From: Ischnura elegans
Lineage: Eukaryota; Arthropoda; Insecta; Odonata; Coenagrionidae
Length of the DNA: 64,000 nucleotides
Direction of reading: 5' to 3'
NCBI RefSeq assembly: GCF_921293095.1
Contig: NC_060249.1
Span: 74,845,907 to 74,909,906 of the forward strand
This document shows positions 1-61,446 of this stretch, in pieces. The first letter of the stretch is position 1. Each line of letters starts with the position of its first letter. The notes under the pieces were generated by a model. It was not told the origin of the DNA. It did not search any database and saw only the letters and a program-made list of their open reading frames with translations. A program made the position numbers and the translations under genes.

Positions 1-2066
1 TCTTGTGAATATTTCCTCAGATATCATCAAAGGAATGAGCAACATTCGAGGATATCGGCAAAATTAAAATATTTCATGAATGAGAGCATCCTGCTAATTG
101 TCAGCATTATGTTCACCTCTCTCCATGAAGTTTTTAATTTATTATTGAAAACACTTTTATTTAGAATTACATACATGGAGACATTAAAATTTGTATATTT
201 GAAAGGAAATTCAGCATATTTTTTTTGTAATGATGCATGAATTAAATAAAGGGTTGAACTCTTTAGTTACTGTACATTTTATTTTAGAGGCTCTAATACA
301 TTTTTTAATTTCAAATTAATTGAGTTTCATTAAGAGAAACTTTTTTGTTACTTGTTTATTGGAGATTTTGGTTCTTAAAAGAATTATGTACTATATACAT
401 ACATGTAGCGATGATTTGTTTAATTTCAGTGTCTTATGGTGAATTTTCATTGGCATTTTAAACAACTTCCATCTCTCATAGATTTTCCAGACTGCATTGT
501 GTCTCTTAATTGGTGATAATGTGAAATACATGCTTTTATCTGTTTTCATAATTTGTTTACAGTGCATTTGGTTATTCTTTCAGGAGTAATTGTTGCTGTC
601 ATTATTGTCTTTTTTTCTCTTCGGCTTGTTTATTAATTTTCATGCTATGCACACTGCTATAGTCTGTATCGTATGTAGCTGCAATGTCTTTGATATCATG
701 TATAATTTTTTTGTCCTTATTTCTGTATACTTTTACTTTTTAGTAATATATCTAGTTCAAGGTGTTCACTCAGCTTTTAGTATCATCTGGGTGGTAAGTG
801 TTGTTTTTATTTGACCTTTAACATACTACCTATGAATTTATTTTTTTGCTGTAGTAGAATGTAAGTGTAATAACCATATATACATGCTACTTTGAATTTT
901 TACAGTGATTAGTTATTAATACAATTGAACTTATTAAAATCATCCAACAGTTGTATTGCCATGCAAAATACCAATTTGCTCGGACATTTATTTTTTCCAG
1001 CGCTTTACAAAAAACAATATTCTTTGGTTGTGAATTTTATTTCATAAAGACTGTTTACTGTTGCTTAATTCATGGAGTATTCATTTCAATCATATTACAA
1101 TTAATTCAAAAATATTTTAAAGAATTTGAATAAATCAATTTTTACACAGATAAAGTATATGTGAGTGTAGATGTGCCGTCATGTAACACTCATGCATTGT
1201 TTGTTTAAGCATAAGATAGCATTCACTTTTTTCATTAAAACCCTGGAGCTTCTAAAGTATTTGAGATTAGAATTCCATAAATTCCTTTACTTTGATGCTT
1301 CCAGTATAACACAATTTTTGAGAAAATGTATCTAATAATGCAATATTAGCAAACTAATGTTTTTGGTACCTAATTTTATTTTTGTCTAACACAGGTAGAG
1401 TCTGTTTTCAAATAAATATGTATGTACTTATATTTGTGAAATGGTGAGAAGGTATTATAGAATTAAATTTATACATTTATTGGCACTCCTTCCCCACGTA
1501 TAAGTTTTTTATAATACACAAGCACTATAATTAGCTGTTTTTCATAATAACCCATTTTTTCTACTTACTTGGTATGCTTTTTTATGGTGAATGGAATATT
1601 TTTCTGCTAGGTTCAAGGCCGTGAATTTACTGAGTTTTTAAGGTTCAGTCATTCTTTAACACTGATAAAAATGTAATACTCACACAGCATATTGGAGGAA
1701 TAGCATTATTATTTGATTAATTAATTGAAAATATGGTTTCCATTTTTTTATTACCTTGTCTCTTTTTTTAATCACCCAATATTAATTTCTCTAGATTTTA
1801 GGGAAGACATATAAATTACTTCATTAATATTTTCACCATTTTCATGCTTTTTCTATTCGTTATTGAATATAAATCTAGGAAAACAATAAGAAGTTCAGAA
1901 CCTGGAGCCAGTCCAGGTATTTTTTCTTCAGCATTATTAAGGTGAAAATTACTCCTGGGGAGAGAGATATTTTCCTTTGTCCCTCATCCCTTAAATTTAA
2001 TCATGAGCTGTCTCTCAATTGAGCCATCCAAATATTCTTCAGTTATTTTCTTTATATCCTTCAATG

Positions 2067-2390
2067 CAGGAGTGGAACTAGGAGGATTGTCACTAGGGGG
2101 CAAAGATATCAGTTTACCCCTACCATTCCATTCCCCTACCCATCACTAAAATATAATACATCCGTTAGCTATTTTTTTAAATGCAGTAGTTGAAACCACA
2201 CATGTATTTTTGCGATGAAGAAATTTTATGAATACTATTTTTTAATAGTTTATAAATTAGTGATTCTTGTGAAATAATTTAATTAGAAAAATTAAATTAC
2301 TTTTTTACGTAAACTTTTTATATTTGCTGCCTCCTGAAATCTGCCGCCAGGGACACATGCCCCCTCTGATCTTTCCTAGTTCTGAGTCTG
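2067..2390. mobile_element. hAT-type MITE with perfect 8-bp target duplication
   Basis: A 324-bp element with inverted ends CAGGAGTGGAACTAGGA and, reversed, CAGACTCAGAACTAGGA. It is flanked on both sides by CTTCAATG (2059-2066 and 2391-2398), an exact 8-bp duplication as made by hAT transposases. G-rich and C-rich runs lie just inside the ends. No coding capacity. Confidence 0.88.
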
Positions 2391-2680
2391 CTTCAATGGT
2401 AGTGGTCTACGTATGTATTCATGAATCTGGTACCAGATATAGGCAACTATGAGTGATGCAACATTTGTTTAATTTTTTACTGCTATTCGAGTGAATTTTT
2501 TCAGAAAGATTTTTTTATCAAGAATTTCATTCACTCCGACAGTTGAAATGTGAGCCTCTGATATTTACCATACATGCATGTCTGATTATTTCATGCTATA
2601 CATACATAAAAGCAAATAGTTTTTGCTTAAATTTCATTTGAAAGAAGTTTTCTGTAGTCCTCCTTGGAACTCTGATTTTC

Positions 2681-3173
2681 CCCACATAGCAGAAATAGGT
2701 CTCGGATACGTCTCTGAGATGTCTCGAATATCACATCTGAGACTTCTCTGAGATGTCACTATGTCCAAAAAAATGGTCTATGTGACATCTCTTGAGACAC
2801 CTCACATAAGTCTCTGAGATGTCTCATTAGACTTTGTACTATGGTATGCTTTAAATTTAGGCAAAAAAATAATTAAATTTAAATTATACAGTTATGGCCT
2901 ACTTTTCTCCATCATTTTTAGCGACAAATTTTGTGATGGATCACCTTTTGAAAATAAGAAACTCATATTGAATGTCGTGATTTTAATAATCAAAACTGCA
3001 GATTTGCACCGAAAAATATATATGGAAGGCATTGATGGCATTTAAATACGTTTTTTTTTTAAATTCCTGAGCGTCTCACGATTACATCTCCGAGACATCT
3101 GTGAGACATACGTGATATTCGAGTCATTCGAGACCATAGTGAGACGTCTCTGAGAGGTTCGTTGCTATGTGGG
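2681..3173. mobile_element. Palindrome-rich MITE with CCCACATAGCA ends
   Basis: The left end CCCACATAGCA and the right end TGCTATGTGGG are exact inverse complements. The element is 493 bp, flanked on both sides by TC. Inside both ends are many copies of GAGAYRTCTC-like palindromes (GAGATGTCTC, GAGACATCT, GAGACGTCTC), making the terminal 100 bp able to fold extensively. No coding capacity. The superfamily is not clear. Confidence 0.82.
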
Positions 3174-3913
3174 TCCTTGAAGGTTTGATTGATACTAGAC
3201 TTTCAAATGCCACTTTTACAACCTCTGCATTGAAAACACTCACTACACCTCTTCTCAATCACTCTTCCACAGAAAAACAACTGAATCTCCTCTCACTATT
3301 GAAAGGCATTGGTTCTCAGATGCACTTCTGCATTTTTCAACTACCGCAGGCATTAAATGTCCCATGTTCCAGTTAGCTCCTTGTCTAAGTCTTTTCACTA
3401 AATCTGAATGGGCCTCAGTCACTTCCAAAGGCCTGAAGTAGCCTGATGGAATGTAGGAAAAAAATCGTTAGGAAACGGTTAAATGCGGAAAAAGGTCCAA
3501 GAATCTAGTCTACTTCACTGAAAGATTCCATGGAAGCCTACCAAGGAATCTTTTTCCTTTTATTGCCACTTGCTAGAAAATTAAAAGTTACTGACGATTT
3601 TCCACAAAGACTATTGTGTTTGTAGTGGCAAGTATTTTTGGAAAAATTGGCAGTGACTTTAATAGATTGATACGTTGGAATACTTCAAGATTTCGCCTGA
3701 AACAACTTTCTGTATTATCACTCACCCTGTGCGGCACTTTATTCATAAGTGTGATTACACTGCCATTATTTAATCACCTCCTCAACTTTGGCTGCCATAC
3801 TGAATCATTGAAACTATTTCTATTTATTGATGTATGCTTTCTTCCATTGTTTTTATTGTGCTTCCTTTCCGCCTGAATCCTGCAAATGCTGATTGGATAT
3901 GGGCGACATGCAG

Positions 3914-3955
3914 ATCGAGAACTTGGAGGACTTGCTCAAGGAAAAGGACAACCAG
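3914..3955 (+). CDS. brp: brp exon 1 in window (IENLEDLLKEKDNQ)
   Basis: This 42-bp exon encodes 14 residues ending in the ELKS signature LLKEKDNQ. The acceptor is a CAG just upstream (3911-3913) and the donor is GTGAGG. It is in phase 0 at both ends and joins exactly to VDMARARL in the next exon, a junction sequence conserved from insects to vertebrates in this family. It is too short to be found as an open reading frame. Confidence 0.9.
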
Positions 3956-6900
3956 GTGAGGGCAGGCGGGCCTCAGAAGGGCTCTATGAGGGCTGAGCAC
4001 AGAGTGGAAGGTTATGAGAAGGTATACAGAGACAGATTATGATCCTTTTGATCTCTGTGGATATCACTAAGTCTTCCATGTGGTGTGTTTGAATGTTATT
4101 GTTTTGTACTGTCAAAGCCTTTCCATACATATATTTTTTGAGTTGGCAATTTTGTCGCTTATGTTGACATATCTTGCTGTGGCAGTCACTTCTGTTTTCA
4201 TTTGAGTAAGTATCAACACACTAGTTTGAAAATGTGGGTGGAAAGTTAAAAAAAAAAACAGTTAAATGACTTGAATGCAAGTTGCAGTAAGTGCTGTATA
4301 CTTTGCTTTTGATTGGAAGAAAAATGTTACAAAATATTTTTCCACTTGCAAAAACAAGTGGCAGTAATGAAAAAAAGTCTTAAGTAAGGTTTCCAGGCAT
4401 TTTGTAATTCGATGGAAGGGGAACCCTTTAGATTTTCAAACTTCTTAATTCTCTAGATGCTCTCTCTTCAAGCCCTTTCCACCTGACTTTCATTGTTTTC
4501 ATCTAGCTATCCCGTCCCTACCACTAAATGTTACCTATGACCTCACTAAAGCACCATTCCCACCCAAGGGATCCCTATGTCTTTCAGTGATTCATCTCAT
4601 TTTTTTACGCCTTTTTTCCTCTCACAGAACATGCCACACGTTTCTGTACATAAAAATGCATGCAAGACACATTCACAGTAATAATAGAGGGATTGCGCGG
4701 CATGTAAGTGCACAGAGTGGAATGTCACCTTTTTTATGCTTACAGCGCCGTAATTACTTGCAACGCTTTCAACACGCCAAGTAAATAACATGGTGGGCTG
4801 ATTATTTCAACAGTGACACCATTTTTAATCATGTACCTAGTAAACAGCAGGCAAGTAATATAGGCTTTACTGATTTATGGAATCCCTTTAAGGAAGATAA
4901 CCTCGCATTGTGTCACTTCAAATTTTGGGGTTCAGAATAGGATTGCATGATTTCAAAAACTGGTAATAAAAAAAACCTGATGCACTATCATATTTAATTT
5001 AAGTTATTCACATATATTAAATTATAGGGACACAAAAACTTGATAAGGTTTTTAACCAATTTTTTTATCCAATACCAAAATAAATTCACTCAGGGTATTT
5101 TGTTTTATTTTCTATTCCTTGACCTGATGTCCCCTCAAATTCTGCATGAGAACTTTCCCTAAATGAATCCTTCATCTTGTCTTGTGATTCCTACTTTTCT
5201 CATTTCTGCTTTGTATTCAAATAGAAATTGAATCCTCTGTCTTTATTTTGTCAAGGGTTAATTACTTGCTATTTCCTTTTCATCACAGCATTCATTCCTA
5301 GCAGGAAATGTGAAAAGATGAAATATAGGATAGTTAATAACTAGTGCATAGTTTCCAAGTTAGTTTAGCATAGTATTGCTTTAACTAGGCAAATGATCAG
5401 CTACTTCCCTAAAGCTCAATAAGTTACCTTTTACTTATCCCAGGACTTTAAAAAAATACGTATCTCTAAAGCAGCCCTGTGTTATGGATTGGTTTGTCAT
5501 TGGCAGCAGGTAAGTTAATCACCACTTGAAGTAAGTTTTCATGAAAGATTTAGTAGCATCTAATGAAATTATTCTCTTCAATACTATAAATTATTTGGGA
5601 TGATGTATTTTTTAATGTTATATGATAATTATATTGTAATGAAAAAAATTAGGTTCAAATGCAAAAAATTTTGACAAAGTAGTAGTTCATTTGAAAACTC
5701 ATGGTTTCGGAACACATTAGATTTAGAAATTGATTGAAATTTGAGGAGATCATGCTATAAAAGAAAACAATTCTAATAGTTTAACTTGGCTTCCATTACC
5801 TTATTGCTCATTTAGTGATCCCAGAAGCTGTTCTTGTAATGGTACGATGTTAATTTTAATATGCATCCTGAATAATGATATTTATTATAAAACATTTGAG
5901 AGAAAACTATAGCAATATGCCCAATCTGATGATTTTCTAGCCTTATAAAAAAAAGGAATTCATGCTTGCTTGAACTTTAATATGAAGTACCTATTTATCT
6001 TGTAAGAGGAAATATTATTAGTTAAAATGGAAAATGTAATTACACGTATCATAAGGTTTCAGTGGTTCATAGGTATCATTGGTGTAGAGAAAAAAATGCC
6101 TATATTGTGAGGTACAAAATAGATATTTATTCCATGGATTACTTACATTAATGAAATATCACAATAACCATGCATTAAATAAACATAGGTCAGTTACATT
6201 TGGGTTGATAGAAAAAAATTAGATGGCATTGAGGGAGAAATGTCATTGCTAGGTGAAAAATAAATAAAAAAGCTTTAATATCTTATTCCTGGACATCATC
6301 ACTTTGTATTGCGTTAGAATTTTAATTTTATCTAGGTTATAATAATTCAAGGAAATGTAATATTCCTATTTTTATTCAGAGTTTTTGCAGCTTTTTTTTT
6401 TGCTTACTAATATTGGAACAGGGATTTAAAGTTTAGAGTAACTAGAGAACATAACAAAAGCTACATTTAAAATAGATGCAATTTTGATTGAAAACAGGGT
6501 AAGAATAGAATTTGAGCTTCACTTCAATGATAAAATTATACTTGGTTGCATTACCAACTGCTCACCCCATGCACATTTCTGATGCCATTTGTTAAACCCA
6601 CCCGACCAAATTCTCCGTGACCACCTTATTCCTGCCTAATCATTTTTTTGTTACTCCCTAGCATTTTTCCTGTGTGTCTGCATGAAGCCTGAGGTAACTA
6701 TTGACATGAAAAACTATAATGAGGCATTTTACTTGGTATACCAAATTAGTACTATATATAGAACGTAGCTTATTCATTGCATACCTTATATAAATTCATC
6801 AATCACAGATCAACTATCTAAATCACCTTCAAAGAACTCAAATGAAGTAAATTTAGGCATTAGGTACATATATTTAAATTTCATATGATGATGGAGTTTT

Positions 6901-9900: not shown

Positions 9901-12900
9901 TAATCATCCTCTGATGGATAATGATGTGCTGTAATAAATGTTGTGTCCATTCTTGGTTCAAGAAGAGAATGCATACTTTTACATGATCAAGTTAATTTTT
10001 ATCTGTTTCTTTATTCAATGTTGTAAATAGATAAAAATTTTGGATGTTGTATATAAAATTGAAAAAAAATTACGATTTCAGGTTCGTTTGGAGAGAGCAC
10101 AAGCTGAAAAGGATAAACTGGAGGCTAAGCTGGAAGCATCACAGTCAGAGTTAGGAAAGTCAAAAGCAGAGTTGGAAAAAGTGCAGAGAGAAGCTGGTAG
10201 TAGTGTTGATGACCGAGAAGCTGCCAGGGCACGCACAGCAAAGCTTGAACTTGAGAATGAGAGACTGAGGGCTGATCTTGAGAGATCACAGGCCACGTTT
10301 GGGCGCTCAACTCTCAATACCTCACAAGTTAGTGGATACATCCTCTTTGTTAATATTTTTTTAATAATGTAAATTGTTTATAATTCTCAAATCTAATGAC
10401 ATAATCAGAAGTCACTTGGGTATTCATATACACCTGTTCAGCAATAGTCCATTTACCCTTGTAGTGAATATTTTGTGGCTCATCCAGGGTATGCAATTGC
10501 CCATTTCCTGCCTATGCCATATTTCTCAAGCTTTTAAATGTTTTATTGCCCATATTTTTTGTGTTGATTATCTGATCCTTTTGTTCAATATATGTACTGC
10601 CTTAAATTTGACTGAGTATACCTTCTTCTTAATGGTAGATGGCAGTTTCATTAACTTTTTCAAGGAGTAAGGCGTGTGTGCTCCTACAAAACAAAGTATC
10701 CAATTTTAATGTTTTTTACTAAGTAAAAGAGAAAAAATATGCACTTGAAGGGATAGTACTGTTCACACATTGTTCATAAAATGCAATAATTAATCAGGAG
10801 CAATGGATGCTGATTACATATTTATTTGGTGAGTGTACATATTTGCTAATGTAGAGCTTTTGGATGTGTTGAAGTTTCTCAGCTGTTATTTGAGTGCTCT
10901 GATCAATTTCAAAGCTATGGGGAAGGGTTAAAAAAAAAAGATGTTAACTACATTGGGTTATTAGTAGATTCCAGAATTCAAATTTTTTTAATCGCTGAAT
11001 TTTGGATTAGCTCATAGATAAGTTTAGGAAGCGTGCTGAACATGGATATGTAGAGGCAAGGTGGTGGATTTGAATTTTTTACTGAAGTAATGACTGATAT
11101 TTTCCATTAAGTTTGATGAGTCACCAGCCAACGTTAAAAAATTAACATGACTTTCATTAATGGTACTTCACTTTCTTTAAAAGCCAATTTAAGTGATTTA
11201 TAAGCAACTCAGGATTTTGTTATTCACATTTTCTGAGAAAAACATCTTTCCATTGACGATGTGACTCATTTTGTTAAATTTACATCGTAAACATTAAGGT
11301 GTGATCTTTCTTACTTTGACTATATTTGAAGGAATGATTTATGTACTATGCAATTTTCATTAGTGATTTTATAATATCAAATTTAAATTCACGTTATGGG
11401 AACCAAAGGAACTGGACCGTGCCACCGAGAGAGCAGAGAGAGCGTCTGCTGAACTCCGGAGAGCTCAAGCCGAAGCGAGGGCATCGCTTGCGGAGAGGGA
11501 TCGTGCAAGGGCAGAGGCAGATTCATTACAGGAGAAACTCGAGAAGTCTCAAGGGGAGGTGTACCGCCTTAAGGTTAGTGTTCTTTGTATTAGTTAATAT
11601 TATAAATTTATGTACAGTCAACTCTCAATCATCTGCCTCCCAATTATCCAGTGTACAGATTATCTGGACTATTTTCTTTCTTCCTGGACATAGAATTTTG
11701 AGGAATATTCTGCGGGGTACAATGATGAAACTCCAAAAATATCACTATATTGTAAAATATCTTTATATTATTGTTGTAAGTATACTGAATTCATTAATAA
11801 AATTCGGATATTCTTTCAAACATCTTTGATCCTTAAAGCAGTGGATTTATTGACAACCTTAAGTACATATATAATAACAGTAAATGTGCAAAAAGACAGT
11901 GTAACTCCCTCACATTCACTTTATGGTTAAATTTTCAAACAAGACTAGATCACTCATAGTATGCTACAATTATTTAATATTATTCCCTGAGAAAGAACCT
12001 TCTTGGTATTAATTATAACTGAAATTAAATAATTGATCATGGCACTAATGATTTCTGTTTTGCTTTGCCAGTTCAAAATGGTTAATGTTTGGATAATCAA
12101 GAACTTTAATTGAGGACATTTCCACAAGCATGATCATGTATGGTAACCCTGCATCAATGTGAACTGCTGCTTTAATCTTCATTCTTTTCATTTTAGGCTC
12201 GTCTTGAGAATGCACAATCAGAGCGTGAGAGTGGCCAAGAGGAATTAGAGAGGGCCGCTGGTGCCTTGGCACGAGCCACTGCCGATAAAGAGCGTGCCTG
12301 TGGGGAGCTGATCAAGTTGAAGGAGGAACTGGAGAGATCTCAGGCTACGTTAGGAAAAGCACAACTAGCCCAAGAGAAACTCCAGGCCTCTCTAGATAAA
12401 GCACAGTCTGATGCTGACCAGCTTCAGGAGCGACTTGACAAAGCACAAGCTGAAGTGAGAAGGGTAAGTTGCTCAATTCCAAAAAGTATACTTATCAGTG
12501 GCAGCTGGTGGTTATGTATCCAGGGTGTGAATTAAAATGATGAAAAAGGGCATGAAGTTCAAACGAATGCTGCTAAATGGCACTGAATGCATTGACAGAC
12601 TAGGGTCCTGAGCGCAGGTAGTGTAAGTGGCAGCTACACTGCTAAACTACCCAGACGGCACAGAACCCTCCGTATCTAATTCGTATGTACATAGTACCCA
12701 TTGACTAAGGGGATACTGTGCCGCTCCGTCGCTTTTCGTCAATGGATACATACCATTCGCGGCCTGTCGACGAAGCGCGTACGCAGCATGTGAATGTCCG
12801 CTACTAAGCACGTACGATTGGATACATAGCGCGCAGGAACACGGCACTCAGGCTAATCTCAATCGATTAGGTCGAAATTAGTTATATCGTAACTCGCACG

Positions 12901-15900
12901 ATCGAAAAATGTATCGAACGCAACACAATCGATAACTACCGACCGTAGCGAGAACCTTGATACGAATGAATTGTAAGTTCTCAATAGGTAAATAACACCA
13001 TATCATGAATTCTAATTACCATGAAAGACTCACGACCGACAAAGTTTTTGTCGGTTGTGAGTTTTTCATGGTAATTAGAATTCATGATATAGTATTATTT
13101 ACCCATTGAGAACTTACAAAACTTACTCGGCCACTTAAATAACTCTGCGAAAAATGAGATTCTCACGGCTAATTCACGCACCACCAGCATCCAGCATTGT
13201 TAAGTGGCTCGTACTTACTTGGAAACCTTGAGATGTTAATGAGAGTAAATTCTTATTAATTTTGACACAAAATAAGACATCACATAGCCCACGAGCATTA
13301 AAAAGCTTACCCTAAAGCCTGACGAAATAAGATTTTTAAATAAAAATTGCCGATGAAACAGGATTGCTGACACATCTGCGATTAGTATGATCGAATTCAT
13401 CAAAATGCAAGCAAAAATTAACGTATAGTTCAGTCTCAGCTACTAAAACTTACCCATATCAGGCGCTAAAGTATTTGATAAATTATTTGGTATGAGTAAA
13501 AGTCCCTAGGTAACTGCAGTAAATGCATCAACCTATTAAAAATATGAAAGTCCTGCCAAATCACCAGCATAAACACTTGTAAAATAAAACATGTTATCTC
13601 TTAGATCACACCTCCGATTTTATACTTACTTTGCATGAAGTCACCACCGCAAGAAATTTTAAAGAGGCAGGAAAGAAAAAACCCACAGAAATACAATACA
13701 TATATTATGTATTTTCTATTGTCAACCACAATAATATTTCCAATTTTCTCTTCTATCCCACATCTAATTTAGCGAAACAATTACTCTTATTCTCTTTCGA
13801 ATAGAAAATTATTTAAAAGAGGACTGGTCGATACATACAAACTATCGTCAATACTTTCTCCGATGAACGTCCACTATCACTGCACCAACTTGCACAAATC
13901 AAATCCACATCCACAAATATGTCACTTCTGCCACAATGTCTGTCTTCTTGGCGACAGGTAACAGTGAAGCAATGGTACCTTCCTCCAATCTGGGCACCTT
14001 CCATTCAGCAAGAATTTTCTCCTCGTCTTCTCGTCCAAGGCCACAGATTACTTTCTGATATCACAATGGTGCAATGTGAAGCTCACACACCTAAAATTAA
14101 TAAATAATAAAATACCATGTAACTTATTAGGTCAAATCATTTCCAATTTTTGGTATTTCTGCATGAGAAATCAAATTACTAGGCTCGTAAATATAGTAAA
14201 TATTTGTATGCCTGATATTTTTATTGTTTTAAACTATAGCATAAGATAATTTGAAATGATGAAAGCCGACGTGTAATACACCATAGGGCAAGCTAAGAAG
14301 CAATATTCGATCCTATAAACTTGGCAGCTTATTCCTAGTTTCTCCTTTAACCACACGTTTACCGAATGAATTAATACAAAAAAGACAACTAAAATGCAAG
14401 AATTTTCAAAAGAATTGCTGCTACAATATTTTGAATCACCATTTTTAGTAGTGAATAGTTCGGGATGTTGATGCATCAACATCCCGAAGCCACTTCTGAC
14501 TTAAAATTACATCCAAATAATTACAGCGAGAAAGAGTACATACCTCACAGTTTTTCGTAGGGGTGAAATGTTTTCTTCTTATCGCCCAAATGCACTTCTT
14601 CTTCAACTCAGGATCTTTTGGAGAGCTAAAAACTTGAACCATATGTCCCGGAGTTTCCATTACATCCCGACAATACACACACGAAAGGCATTTCTAACAA
14701 AAATATCTCACAAACACGTTTCTGAAGCCCAGTGAATGAAATTAAAGAATAAGGGAAACTTCACCATTACCAGACACTCTATTCTTCACTAACTTAACCA
14801 CAAAAATCCCTGAAATGTAGTGAGACGTGACGTAAACGACGCGATCTCCAACGGCTTGTGAAGGCATGTGATCTTTCTAGGAGGATAGGGCACGATGGCA
14901 CCAGATGGCACCACCCGCGAAAGAAAATAGTCCCAGACCGAATACAGTTTTATCGATGAGATACAATTTTATCGATGCATATGAATTTGCCAGTCCTCTT
15001 GCATCTTTTTTCGTCATTAAAGGAAATAAAGAAACAAAACCTTCTAAGTAACTTCCTAAGCGCGACTTTTGTATCTTGATTGTCCACCCTCGTATTTAGG
15101 TACGAAAACTTCCTGTGCCGTCTGGGTACCTGCGAGTTACTCACCAAATATGCATGTACGCACTCGCGTCGTGTTGCGTCTGCTCTCAGCACCCATTTGA
15201 ACATGACATGTTCCTCTGCTTACGTCGTCCCTCCCAAGCACCCACAAGTAATCACGTAGACCGAATATGCAGCCAGCGCGATGCCACGGGATTGCACACT
15301 TGTAGAGCGGTGCATTCGCCAAGGAGATAGCAGTAGCATTTGGAGCTTCATATCCCATCTCTGTGTGGACAGGATTTTTATATTTTTCTTTGCAAAGGCA
15401 TACATATTTTTCTTTTATAATTCATTCACCTTTGGGTGTGCAGTTGCGAACATGTGTATATGCAGGCACCGCCACTGATAATTATGAAACTCACAATCAG
15501 TAAATTTATTAAGGGCTTTCAATGACTCTGACTAACATATTGATTGCTTGTGAAATGGATATAAAGTGACCTATGTCTTTCTTCTTCTTTTTTGCCAGCT
15601 TCAAATGGAGAAAGAAAAACAAGGCTATGACTTTGAGAGTGTGCAATCTCAGCTCGACAAAGCACAAGGTCAGGCCACAAGACTGCAGAAGGAGCGAGAA
15701 GCTGCTCAGCTGGAAGCTGACCGCCTCAGGGACAAGTATGAGAAATCACAGGTAGAATTTTCCGTTAAGACATTTTCTTTGGTGTACTAGAGGAGATTCT
15801 TTTGAGTTTTGTTGTACTTGTCAAGTGTTGATATTATCAATTTTCATACCCTTCATTTAAATGACTTTTTTCTTTATTGGAAGTTGTTCAGTTTGTCCTC

Positions 15901-39900: not shown

Positions 39901-42900
39901 TTTCAAGTTGATATTTCTGAATCTTTTCAAATATATCTAGTATCTGGTTAAATACATATTTTGGTAGTTGCATGGAACTGAGGGAGAAACAGAGAAAGTT
40001 AGTAGAAAACATTCTTTCAGTAAGTTTCATATTTGCCTGCTATAAATTGTTCCATGATTTTTACTTAGTTCTAAGACCTATATTATTTTAATGCCCATAT
40101 CCCAATTAACTAATTTATTCATGTTGGGATATTTTTTCTTTGTATCATACCTATTTATTTTATTCATTTGTTGAAGGTCTGTAAACTGGAGCAGAGGCTC
40201 ATGTCTCTTCAGACAGCTCATGCATTACGTTGCGCAACTTGTCGACCTCTTCTGACTCGTCTTCAAACCTTGGAACAAAAATTAACCACATTGCTATCTG
40301 AGAGGCACACACATTTACAGGATCTGGCTCGTATGAAGTGAGTGATAGCAATATATTTTTCAGAGCTTGAAGCAATAATTGTTGGTGTCTTTTGTGGGAG
40401 CTATTTCACCCTTGGTATTTAATTTGTCTCGACATGCAAATGACTCCTTTTAAGTAAGTTTTATAAGTAATTGGATTTCCTTAGTTTTTTCTTGAAGGTA
40501 TTGGGTTGATGATAGTCTTATTTTGTCTCTGAAAAGAGTTGTCTCATTATTCATTTGTACACTTTATTTTTCCTTGCCACACAGTAATATCTAAAAATTT
40601 TATTAATATATTGTATTGATAATTCAACATTCTTCTTCATTTTAACCTTTCATAAGTGTTGCACTTATAATGTGGTTCCTTTAATGGCATGAAGTAGAGG
40701 TTTCATTGTATCAAGAACTCTGTAAGTTACTCAACTTTACTTGTTGCCCCTTTATACACACAACACACCATGCACCCCTAGTCATTTTTTACCTTGAGAT
40801 TAGTTGAGCCATAACTCAACTTATTCAAGTTGAATTTATGGTGACCCAATGTGAAAACAGTTCATACAAGGTTACTTGTTGCAGTTATTTTCTTAAGGGC
40901 TGCCAATTAATCATTTATCCTGAGGAATTTGGCAACCATATGGATGAATTGAATTACAGCCAACCTTTGACTATCTAGCTTCTTATTATTAGCTTTAAAA
41001 ATTATCCATCATATTATCTCCTCATTAAAATAGTTGAAAAATTTGTCCATGAGAAAAATAATTAAAATTCTTTGAATTTTTATTCTTGCACCTAAAAAGA
41101 AGAACCATTTTATGAACTAAAAATCTTCTATTTTTGGTTCATTCATGTTCAAGAGTATCAAATGATACAATTTTTAATTTATTTCTTGTTTCCCTCTACC
41201 TAATGAAATTATTGTTTTCCTAAAACATAAAATTTATGGAGACACACTTTTTAATGTTGCTAATGTTTTTTATGTTACATGGTATTATGTTGTGTTTTAA
41301 AGGCCATGTAGATATACTTCTTAACACATATAAAAGCTAGAGAGACTGTAATTCTGTAGCCTCTCTGTTAAATGTAAAAAGTCAATGCAAGAATTGCTCA
41401 TATTCATGGGAAAACCCTTTAATATTACATAGTATGAGTAGTAGAGTTTAGTCTCATATGCTTTACTATTTATGTGCCCCATTTGTGGGGACTGTAATAT
41501 GGGCTCCAAATACTCTATGGACTTGTAGCAATTACCAATCAGTTCCCATGATGGATATTTACTATGGCAAATTGTTGGCCTTCTAGAAATGAAATAAAAA
41601 ATCCTTCTGCCTTGTAGGCAAGAAGCTCTAGAGTCAGCAATCAGTGAGAAAGATGCTCATCTGGCTCTTCTAGAATTCTCAGGGCTGCGCACTGCTAAGC
41701 AAGCAGAGCAAGCCGAAAAATTACGTGCTGATCGGGATCGCCTGATGAAAGCACTTCGCCGAGAGGTAAGCATGCAGTTGATTGGTTTTTCACTTAGATT
41801 GAATTTATAACCTGATAAGTTAATGTTTGCTATGCCATTTTATGGATATACTTTTGTTGTGAATTTTTGTTGAAATCAGCATGAAATCAGAATGTAAGCG
41901 CCAACTTGAGAAAATGAAAAGTACAGTATGATACAGGTCAATTATTAGCTTTATATGCCAAATATTTGCTTGGTATGCATGCATGGTCAGCAGTAGATTG
42001 AACATTCTTTGTTAGCTGAAAGAAATATTTTTTAAGGATGATACTTATATTACTTCTCTGTTTACTTATAAATTTGGCGAATTAAAATAAGTCAAGGATA
42101 GTCTATCCAAGGAAATGCAAAAGACAGGAATTCATTAACATTACAGAGACCAATCTTCGTGATCATCTTGGCCATTAAAAAAATTAACCTCTTTGCGATT
42201 GTTGCTTGGGTTGAACTGATTATATTAATTTTTATGCCCTTTCTACATCACTAATGCTTAAATCATAATAAGTTACTTGAAAGTTTGTTGAAAGTGTAGA
42301 TTATTAGTTCCTAATTAAAAATATTTTCCTCATTAGCCCTTAGACCCAGTGAGAAATGGGTGGTGGAATCCACGTGGAACCCACGTGGAATCCACGTTGA
42401 CTCGTGGATATATGGTGGTGGTGGATATTGAGTGGTTGGACCCACGTGGAATCCACGTTGATTTCAAGTGGATTTGTGGTGATTAGCATAAAATGTTAAA
42501 CAGAATTTCTAATTTGTGGAACTTAACTCTCTGTTGACATTGCGTCATTTATCATCCTGAAACCACGCTAGTTATGTGAAAATGTATCGCACATTCTATT
42601 TTTATATCATTCGTGGAAAGGCAGCCATGAGAGCACATGAAAAATCGTAGACACATATATAGAAGGTTTAGATATAGAGTGGTTGAGGTTTTAATGGTTT
42701 TAGGACAGCACCTACTGCTGTTTTAATTTTTCCACCAAATTTCCACATGGGTTCCACGTTGATTCCACGACCAAAAACACGTGGTATCCACGTTACATCT
42801 CCACGTGGGTTCCACGTGGTTTCCACCACCCATTTCTCACTGGGGAGTGAGGGAATGTTTTTATAAGTTTTGCATGCTAGCTGCGGCATTTACCCAAAGT

Positions 42901-60484: not shown

Positions 60485-61446
60485 GTAGTGCAGTTAGACT
60501 GCTAAACAACCTTTCATAGAAACAAAACTTACCTAATATTGAAGGCGTCTGATAATGTCTCCCCTCACCGCTCTTGCTTCTAGAAGCAGGGCCCTAGCCC
60601 CTTGTTCCACTGGCGGTGGTCTATCAATTTCATCCTCCATATGGAATTCATCATCTCCATATGGAACTCCACCCAGCATACACATGTTGTGCAGGACGCT
60701 GCAGGCATTGACAAATTGGCATACTTTGCTAGGGTCATACTCCATTTTCCTGGCTTGGAGAAGGCATCTAAACCTTCCCTTCAACAATCCAATGCATCGT
60801 TCCACTGCTGAATGTGCCTTCACATGAAGGCGAGTGAAACGTGCCTCGGGTGTGCCCTCTGCTGCATCCAAAATTGGGGTATGGAGCCATGGCTCATGTG
60901 GATAACCAGAATCACCTATGGAATTATTTAACACAGAAATTAGAGATTCATTTTTGAAGAAATTTTCATGACAAACTTAATTTAAGAAATACTAACCTAG
61001 CAACCAACATCTCTCACCTGTAGCCCAAAATTCTGCCAGCTTCTGGCGAATGGCGGAATTAGCCCACACAAAAGAGTCATGGCTGCTACCCGGGTATCTC
61101 GCCAAAATATTATAAATTTTGAGATCTGAGTTGCTAACCTGAAAGTGGAGGATGTTCCACATATGACATAAGTCAGCCAACCATGCACGATAACATGTTC
61201 ATTTGTCTATTGCAAAATGATGTAACTTACTATTTGCACATTAATTGAATGGAATAGCTTTCTGTTCACATATAAGTGCTCTTCCTCCCTTGGAGCTTTT
61301 ATGGCTATATGGGTGCCATCAACATACCCCAAAACACCAGGCATCCCTGCATTTTGGTAGTTCCTGGAAATGTGGAAACCCTTTTTATTAATGAATGCTC
61401 TTTTATCTTTTCAGGTTAAAACAACATCTTAGGAAGTAGGTTTTTT

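Follow-up and report, generated by a model that had tools for sequence, protein, structure and literature searches.

A broken THAP gene inside a probable non-autonomous TRC-type (CACTA/EnSpm) transposon of Ischnura elegans

The window, that is the whole stretch of 64,000 nucleotides of Ischnura elegans DNA that was analysed (contig NC_060249.1), contains a mobile element with inverted ends, a long foldback and the remains of a THAP gene, whose features are given here in the coordinates of the window.

12648..12649, no strand: 2-bp target duplication on the left flank, TA here
12650..15126, no strand: whole element, 2477 bp, probably TRC-type (CACTA/EnSpm) and non-autonomous; longest internal stop-to-stop frame 96 aa
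12650..12663, plus strand: left terminal inverted repeat CCCAGACGGCACAG, 14 bp, exact
12971..13119, no strand: foldback of 149 bp, with arms of 73 nt each (12971-13043 and 13047-13119) and a 3-nt loop
13902..14090, minus strand: putative exon 2 of the THAP relic, with the C-x-x-H ligand pair; 13902 is the end of the matched frame, the exon end being unproven
14091..14543, minus strand: putative intron separating the two exons of the THAP relic (GT-AG)
14459..14489, no strand: 31-bp segment with a perfect 30-bp palindrome, inside the inferred intron
14544..14691, minus strand: putative exon 1 of the THAP relic, with the ATG at 14691, the first two Cys and a frame break near 14628
15113..15126, minus strand: right terminal inverted repeat, 14 bp, exact match to CCCAGACGGCACAG
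15127..15128, no strand: 2-bp target duplication on the right flank, TA here

The inverted ends, the flanking TA and the foldback had all been predicted from the letters of this stretch, and each of them was found at its place. The ends form a perfect repeat of 14 bp, or of 16 bp once the flanking TA is counted. The arms of the foldback are 93% complementary (z = -20.7 against shuffles, computed for single-stranded DNA), and its self-match is present in 40/40 scored genome copies. The 31-bp palindrome segment belongs to the 2477-bp form of the element and is missing from a 2446-bp form; among 33 complete copies it is whole in nine, absent from 23 and half-cut in one (L046), where a 42-nt deletion runs through its middle. 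The shortest complete copy measures 2426 bp (L021). Subterminal repeats near both ends are a habit of CACTA elements; those seen here are short and weak (for example TGGATACATA twice and a 17-bp pair).

A search of the host genome with the ends, as had been advised, returned 1757 exact matches to CCCAGACGGCACAG (888 and 869 on the two strands) and none for the reversed-pattern control, so the end repeats are not a product of chance. The mean pairwise difference among the 33 complete best matches is 0.26%; the copies are very young and the family has recently multiplied. In seven of the first 40 copies the element is interrupted by nested elements; for three of these seven the right end was read from a second piece (L055-L057). 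The four loci L058-L061 (contig C1, >2.5 kb) represent the same THAP-relic element in older copies that have gained internal sequence.

The length of the target duplication, which was to be defined over many copies, is exactly 2 bp in 51 of the 52 copies examined (39/40 best-matching copies, 4/4 longer older copies and 8/8 copies of other length classes), the single miss being L034 with its unequal flanks AT / TG. Eleven different dinucleotides are represented among the first 39 duplications, hence insertion is not TA-specific; TA makes up only 11/39 matched duplications, and TA-specific insertion was rejected on this count. The TA on both sides of the window copy is the duplication of this copy and not a rule. 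Paralogous empty sites with a single dinucleotide were recovered for 6/33 complete copies (L021, L028, L030, L033, L040 and L046), all six of which sit in repeats having an uninterrupted paralogue. Two joined-flank matches for L011 do not confirm a 2-bp site, as both have gaps at the junction or close to it.

The P element duplicates 8 bp and Kolobok duplicates TTAA, and both carry THAP domains. That the element is one of these two has next to no chance of being right, since duplications of 3, 4 or 8 bp number 0/40 among the best-matching copies; P was ruled out by the 8-bp count and Kolobok by the 4-bp count, in agreement with the original prediction. The same prediction had offered a deleted relative of ISL2EU (PHIS); on that reading, the THAP exon would be the N-terminus of an ISL2EU transposase that lost its DDE part. 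ISL2EU does share a THAP domain and a 2-bp duplication with this element; however, according to the excerpted source, it duplicates AT within A|AT|T, its ends mostly begin with GG, and it encodes a DDE + HTH + THAP transposase and a YqaJ protein (PMC4482050). In the family described here the duplicated pair varies freely, AT accounting for just 5/39 matched duplications, and the ends start with CCC instead of GG, on which grounds ISL2EU was rejected. Moreover, no frame in the element exceeds 96 aa, and a Pfam scan of four element frames and three constructs gave THAP only, with no DDE remnant among those frames. A deleted relative of ISL2EU is accordingly very improbable. A THAP domain with a 2-bp flank does not imply ISL2EU, and a single TA-flanked copy misleads where many copies expose an unspecific 2-bp duplication.

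Ends that start with CCC and 2-bp duplications have been described, in the excerpted papers, for the TRC elements of animals, which form a branch of CACTA/EnSpm (PMC1636069; PMC4298943). The TRC terminal inverted repeats read CCCTAGTAGCACCG in Tribolium and CCCAGTCAAC in Aedes (PMC1636069), and the Hydra element Spongebob, filed as TRC/CACTA, has the tip CCCAGCCAACATTGAC and a 2-bp duplication (PMC4298943). The inverted ends of the present element likewise begin with CCC and its 2-bp duplication has no fixed sequence; its tips, CCCAG, are not those of plant CACTA elements in the strict sense. Because both properties are published for TRC, we assign the element, with a probability of about 0.86, to the TRC branch of CACTA/EnSpm as a non-autonomous member that is mobilised in trans. 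The earlier view that its combination of characters fits no known group cleanly is not supported, as CCC tips with a freely varying 2-bp duplication were already described as TRC (excerpts of PMC1636069).

SmTRC1 and other animal TRC elements resemble this element in their CCC tips, 2-bp duplication and internally deleted copies, as far as the excerpts of the source go (PMC1636069). SmTRC1 differs in its terminal inverted repeat of 54 bp, compared with 14 bp here, and in a 2-bp repeat seen in 7/14 copies, compared with the 51/52 of this family; animal TRC elements have a transposase, whereas this element lacks one, and THAP is not mentioned for SmTRC1 or TRC in those excerpts (PMC1636069). Spongebob_HMa / EnSpm-4N1_HM of Hydra shares the CCCAG start and the 2-bp duplication, but its tip, CCCAGCC..., diverges past CCCAG, it is 5.8 kb long, and no THAP is noted in the part of the source that covers it (PMC4298943).

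In the mechanism proposed here, a TRC transposase (Transposase_21) encoded at another place in the genome would recognise the CCC-starting ends, excise the element and reinsert it with a 2-base stagger, which would duplicate whatever dinucleotide stands at the target. The broken two-exon THAP gene would then go back to an ancestor, whether as a gene of that ancestor's own or as a captured one. No TRC transposase was linked to CCCAGACGGCACAG ends in the larger copies and upstream flanks searched; we infer from the ends and the duplication that one of the TRC-type enzymes of the genome moves the element.

Eight nested inserts lie in seven copies, and six of the eight have CCC tips and 2-bp duplications; one nested element (L049) has a Tribolium-like tip, CCCTAGTAGCACAA, and one of the six (L052) encodes a frame of 686 aa. 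This frame matches DUF4218 with E 0.0026 and 18 bits, below the Pfam cutoff of 27, and carries C(2)C and H(3)H motifs of the kind given, in the excerpted source, for the EnSpm-Mirage-Chapaev-Transib group (PMC12730594). A genome search with the L052 transposase gave 799 first-look candidates, of which 65 were scored, and 66 matches; 37 of these, leaving out the query and one fragment, contain no stop over the stretch that matches; their open frames measure 652-738 aa and their identity is 39-54%. The genome of this element thus has TRC-type transposases, as is the case with animal TRC elements.

Longer copies were searched, as had been advised, for a catalytic domain between the ends: over the sequence covered, 46 larger copies yielded no TRC transposase belonging to the family itself, the query being a single TRC protein, which a distant enzyme could escape, and L058-L061 gave nothing better than E 0.96 against the L052 transposase. 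In the 1.3-kb upstream flanks of 20 TRC transposase frames CCCAGACGGCACAG occurs 0/20 times, and the same flanks hold three CCC..CACA-like strings, where by our estimate two to three would be expected by chance. Viral contigs held no relative of the L052 transposase. A tip scan of all loci gave 16 pairs, compared with 15 in the direct-orientation control, and a pair was trusted only if its tips were long or another copy showed the empty site.

The absence of a transposase linked to exact CCCAGACGGCACAG ends in these larger copies and upstream flanks would suit a superfamily of THAP transposons that has yet to be described, makes 2-bp duplications and has TRC-like CCC tips by coincidence, and so would a literature search in whose listings no described combination of THAP with CACTA/EnSpm turned up. 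Such a superfamily is nevertheless quite unlikely, since CCC tips and 2-bp duplications jointly match TRC, and several other families in this genome whose tips follow the TRC pattern, one of them with a TRC-type transposase, nest in the copies.

The class of the element is ordinary under the TRC assignment, and the THAP gene inside it is the unusual part. The predicted two-exon gene on the minus strand, with its C2CH ligands spread across frames, is readable, but the gene, while real, is broken. The first frame of exon 1 meets a stop at 14628-14626 and the remainder reads on in another frame; exon 2 has an in-frame stop at 14063-14061; and the ligands C, C, C and H can be read across the broken frames. 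The two-exon structure (ATG, exons and GT-AG intron) is a reading of the sequence. PF05485 matches the relic with 27.9 bits (E 4.1e-6) when both exons are joined and the two breaks are read through with X, and only for this construct is the curated cutoff of 23.9 bits exceeded, the separate pieces reaching 19.2 and 13.7 bits. THAP2 and THAP1 chains match it with E 3.1e-4 to 7e-4. THAP domains have a conserved Trp and an AVPxxF motif, both of which seem, by eye, to be lost from the relic. Among the 33 complete copies the strings are conserved for the ATG in 30/33, for the frame break, the donor and the acceptor in 32/33 each, and for the exon 2 stop in 33/33. A programmed frameshift was set aside, because the spacing between the two frames of exon 1 varies as it would under decay: it is 10 nt in the copy of this window but 8 nt in six older copies.

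Within the TRC assignment, it is fairly probable that THAP is cargo which a TRC element took up from the host or from another transposon, in the way that plant CACTA elements capture genes. In seven other TRC-like elements the THAP matches were no better than E 3.9, and the flanks upstream of the 20 TRC transposase frames gave none at E 0.5 (one side). The frames of exon 1 are out of register in 6/6 older copies; both pieces of exon 2 are seen in four of these six, and in all four it is broken. The sampled copies thus derive from a source whose THAP gene no longer worked. Against cargo, the relic retains a start codon and splice signals. It is conceivable, though doubtful, that THAP is native to the family: an autonomous TRC element with CCCAGACGGCACAG ends would then have, or have had, genes both for a TRC transposase and for a small DNA-binding protein of the THAP type, the latter binding element DNA like TNPA in plant Spm. 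If the THAP gene belongs to such an autonomous element, a transposon superfamily has newly recruited this DNA-binding fold, beside P, Kolobok and PHIS.

Since the family is young and has many copies, and since stop-free TRC-type transposase frames abound in its genome, it may suit the study of living animal CACTA transposition. The same genome also contains a 131-bp palindromic MITE with the same 14-bp tips (L062-L067), a near-perfect palindrome with no coding sequence, which has about 60 nt of the left end in common with the element and is flanked by a 2-bp duplication in 6/6 cases.

The element at window positions 12650-15126 represents, with a probability of about 0.86, a new, young and non-autonomous family of a known kind, namely TRC, the animal branch of the CACTA/EnSpm superfamily. 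Since no transposase could be tied to the family, this class rests on the ends, the target duplication and the company that the element keeps, from which we infer the enzyme. The anatomy put forward in the original prediction, i.e., inverted ends, TA on the left and on the right, a 149-bp foldback and a two-exon THAP gene on the minus strand, was all present in the window copy:

12650-15126, whole element: 2477 bp, bounded by exact inverted repeats CCCAGACGGCACAG
12971-13119, foldback: 149 bp, z -20.7 as DNA

A run of long coiled-coil frames was recognized by eye at window 10031-44239 (+), and the element begins ~190 bp past a likely splice donor near 12462 (also by eye); perhaps it is intronic in this coiled-coil gene, with the THAP relic oriented opposite.

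Copies were sampled with the first 501 bp of the element as query, and 40 places (including the window's own) were scored out of 1140 first-look candidates. All match these 501 bp at about 100%; 33 are complete end to end (2426-2479 bp) and seven are broken up by other insertions. An exact 2-bp duplication flanks 39 of the 40 copies (TA 11, AT 5, TC 5, AA 3, TG 3, TT 3, CT 2, GA 2, AC 2, GT 2, AG 1), the sole miss being L034, whose unequal flanks (AT/TG) perhaps reflect recombination between two copies. Equal 2-bp flanks were also found in four longer copies (L058-L061; AA, GC, AC and TA), six 131-bp copies and two copies of other lengths, thus in 51 of 52 copies overall. Six of the 33 complete copies sit in repeats for which the fetched sequence includes a paralogue lacking the insertion, and this shows the dinucleotide once; the empty site of copy L030, which is the flank of copy L009, reaches only 8 bases beyond the junction, and the count leaves out the matches of L011, which have gaps at the junction or close to it, and a match of L044 to the end of its own element. 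Insertion sites are A/T-rich and show a weak, symmetric preference for C before the duplicated pair (23/39) and G after it (14/39).

P elements make 8-bp duplications and Kolobok elements TTAA duplications. Duplications of three, four or eight bases occurred in none of the 40 scored copies, and the original prediction was right in setting both groups aside. Neither these two nor ISL2EU fits an element with CCC ends and a 2-bp duplication of varied sequence. A deleted relative of ISL2EU, as had been proposed, was not borne out, since AT makes up only 5 of the 39 duplications and the ends start with CCC, whereas ISL2EU, in the accessible part of its description, duplicates AT and usually starts with GG (PMC4482050). 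The view that the combination fits no known type cleanly gave way to a match with animal TRC elements, which, as far as excerpts of the sources go, jointly share with the element the CCC start and the 2-bp duplication (PMC1636069; PMC4298943). They are known from Schistosoma, Tribolium and Aedes, with tips CCCTAGTAGCACCG... in Tribolium and CCCAGTCAAC in Aedes (PMC1636069), and CCCAGCCAACATTGAC in Hydra (PMC4298943).

One copy of the element, L052, carries a nested 7044-bp insert encoding a frame of 686 aa. The frame matches DUF4218 weakly (18 bits vs. a cutoff of 27) and has C(2)C and H(3)H motifs, the like of which are named for the EnSpm group in the part of PMC12730594 consulted. The genome search with this protein gave 799 candidates, of which 65 were scored, and 66 matches; by manual count, 37 of these (query and one fragment excluded) contain no stop where they match, lie in open frames of 652-738 aa and show 39-54% identity. 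Judged from sequence, a single genome apparently holds many intact animal CACTA transposases, with dozens of stop-free TRC/CACTA-type frames. The original prediction had proposed looking for a catalytic domain in longer copies; the same query recovered no TRC transposase belonging to the family in 46 larger copies, the last pieces of three interrupted ones lying outside the search (one set gave only the self-match at E 1e-3, the others nothing better than E 0.96). The element's end 14-mer was found within 1.3 kb upstream, the only side searched, of 0/20 sampled transposase frames.

The THAP cargo is the feature that sets the family apart from the ordinary TRC kind, and literature searches on the combination, within the texts they reached, found no description of a THAP gene in a CACTA or EnSpm element. 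With its breaks read as X, the gene matches the Pfam THAP domain PF05485 at 27.9 bits (profile positions 1-86 of 87), and the read-through sequence matches THAP2 and THAP1 chains. The reading frame changes in exon 1 near 14628, and exon 2 is interrupted by a stop at 14063-14061; the strings surrounding these two lesions recur exactly in 32/33 and 33/33 complete copies, respectively. Exon 1 is also split between frames in 6/6 older copies (L058-L061, L068, L069), and exon 2 is broken in all four with both pieces seen, in three by frame and in one by the same stop. The source shared by all sampled copies probably carried the gene in an already non-functional state, as it is broken in young and older ones alike, and it would then have spread as a passenger; it may have been a working gene of the autonomous parent or a captured one.

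In the most likely mechanism, the element's tips are bound by a TRC transposase, which would then excise the element and join it to a break with a 2-bp stagger. Among the products seen, the shortest is a near-perfect palindrome of 131 bp that has these tips too (z -23 as DNA; L062-L067, contigs C1 and C2 of the host genome G000), which recurs at exactly identical length with 2-bp duplications in 6/6 and suggests that the tips and ~60 bp are enough for mobilisation. As a guess, the foldback and palindrome may stem from hairpin repair or template switching.

Two forms of the element exist, of 2446 and 2477 bp, and a few copies have a different length. The longer form has linked single-base differences and an extra 31 bp inside the THAP intron (window 14459-14489) that include a perfect 30-bp palindrome; this segment is whole in 9 of the 33 complete copies, missing in 23 and partly deleted in L046. 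There a 42-nt deletion begins just before the palindrome centre, as if provoked by a hairpin. Pairwise difference among the complete copies averages 0.26% (maximum 0.49%); as the copies compared are those that match the window copy best, the value reflects the young end of the family. In the host genome the end 14-mer has 888 forward and 869 reverse matches (reversed pattern as control: 0 and 0), and among the matches listed, neighbouring inverse ends, read by eye, are separated by ~2.0, 2.4-2.5 or 2.7 kb or by exactly 131 bp, with a few wider. The six older copies, picked from the end-match list, are ~85-98% identical to the window copy over aligned pieces; standing beside near-identical ones, they point to a family with a long past that expanded in a recent burst.

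Eight inserts are nested in seven copies of the element. Six of the eight have CCC tips and 2-bp duplications, in keeping with the TRC assignment, and uninterrupted copies supply the empty sites of these six:

L049: CCCTAGTAGCACAA
L050: CCCAGCCAGCACA
L050, L051, L054: CCCAGGAAAGAAAAA group
L052: CCCTACAAACACA

The insert in L048 is Tc1/mariner-like, in TA (by eye), and that in L053 is of another kind. Inside the nested element of L054, positions 2044-4928 hold a further element of 2885 bp (tips CCCAGCCGGCACA, CG duplication), by its tips a near relative; a search of it for THAP gave nothing better than E 4.8.

What looks like another small TRC-type element spans window 42345-42844 (500 bp). 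Its inverted tips, CCCAGTGAGAAATGGGTGGTGGAA, are 24 bp long, GA flanks it on the left and on the right, and CCACGTGG-like repeats lie close to either end; no second copy was found within the 278 kb compared. Possibly another is window 2681-3173 (493 bp; 11-bp tips CCCACATAGCA, TC on both sides, GTCTC repeats); the tip scan gave many chance pairs, and no other copies of this stretch were seen. At 60533-60976 (-) a frame resembling, by eye, a PIF/Harbinger-type transposase is present.
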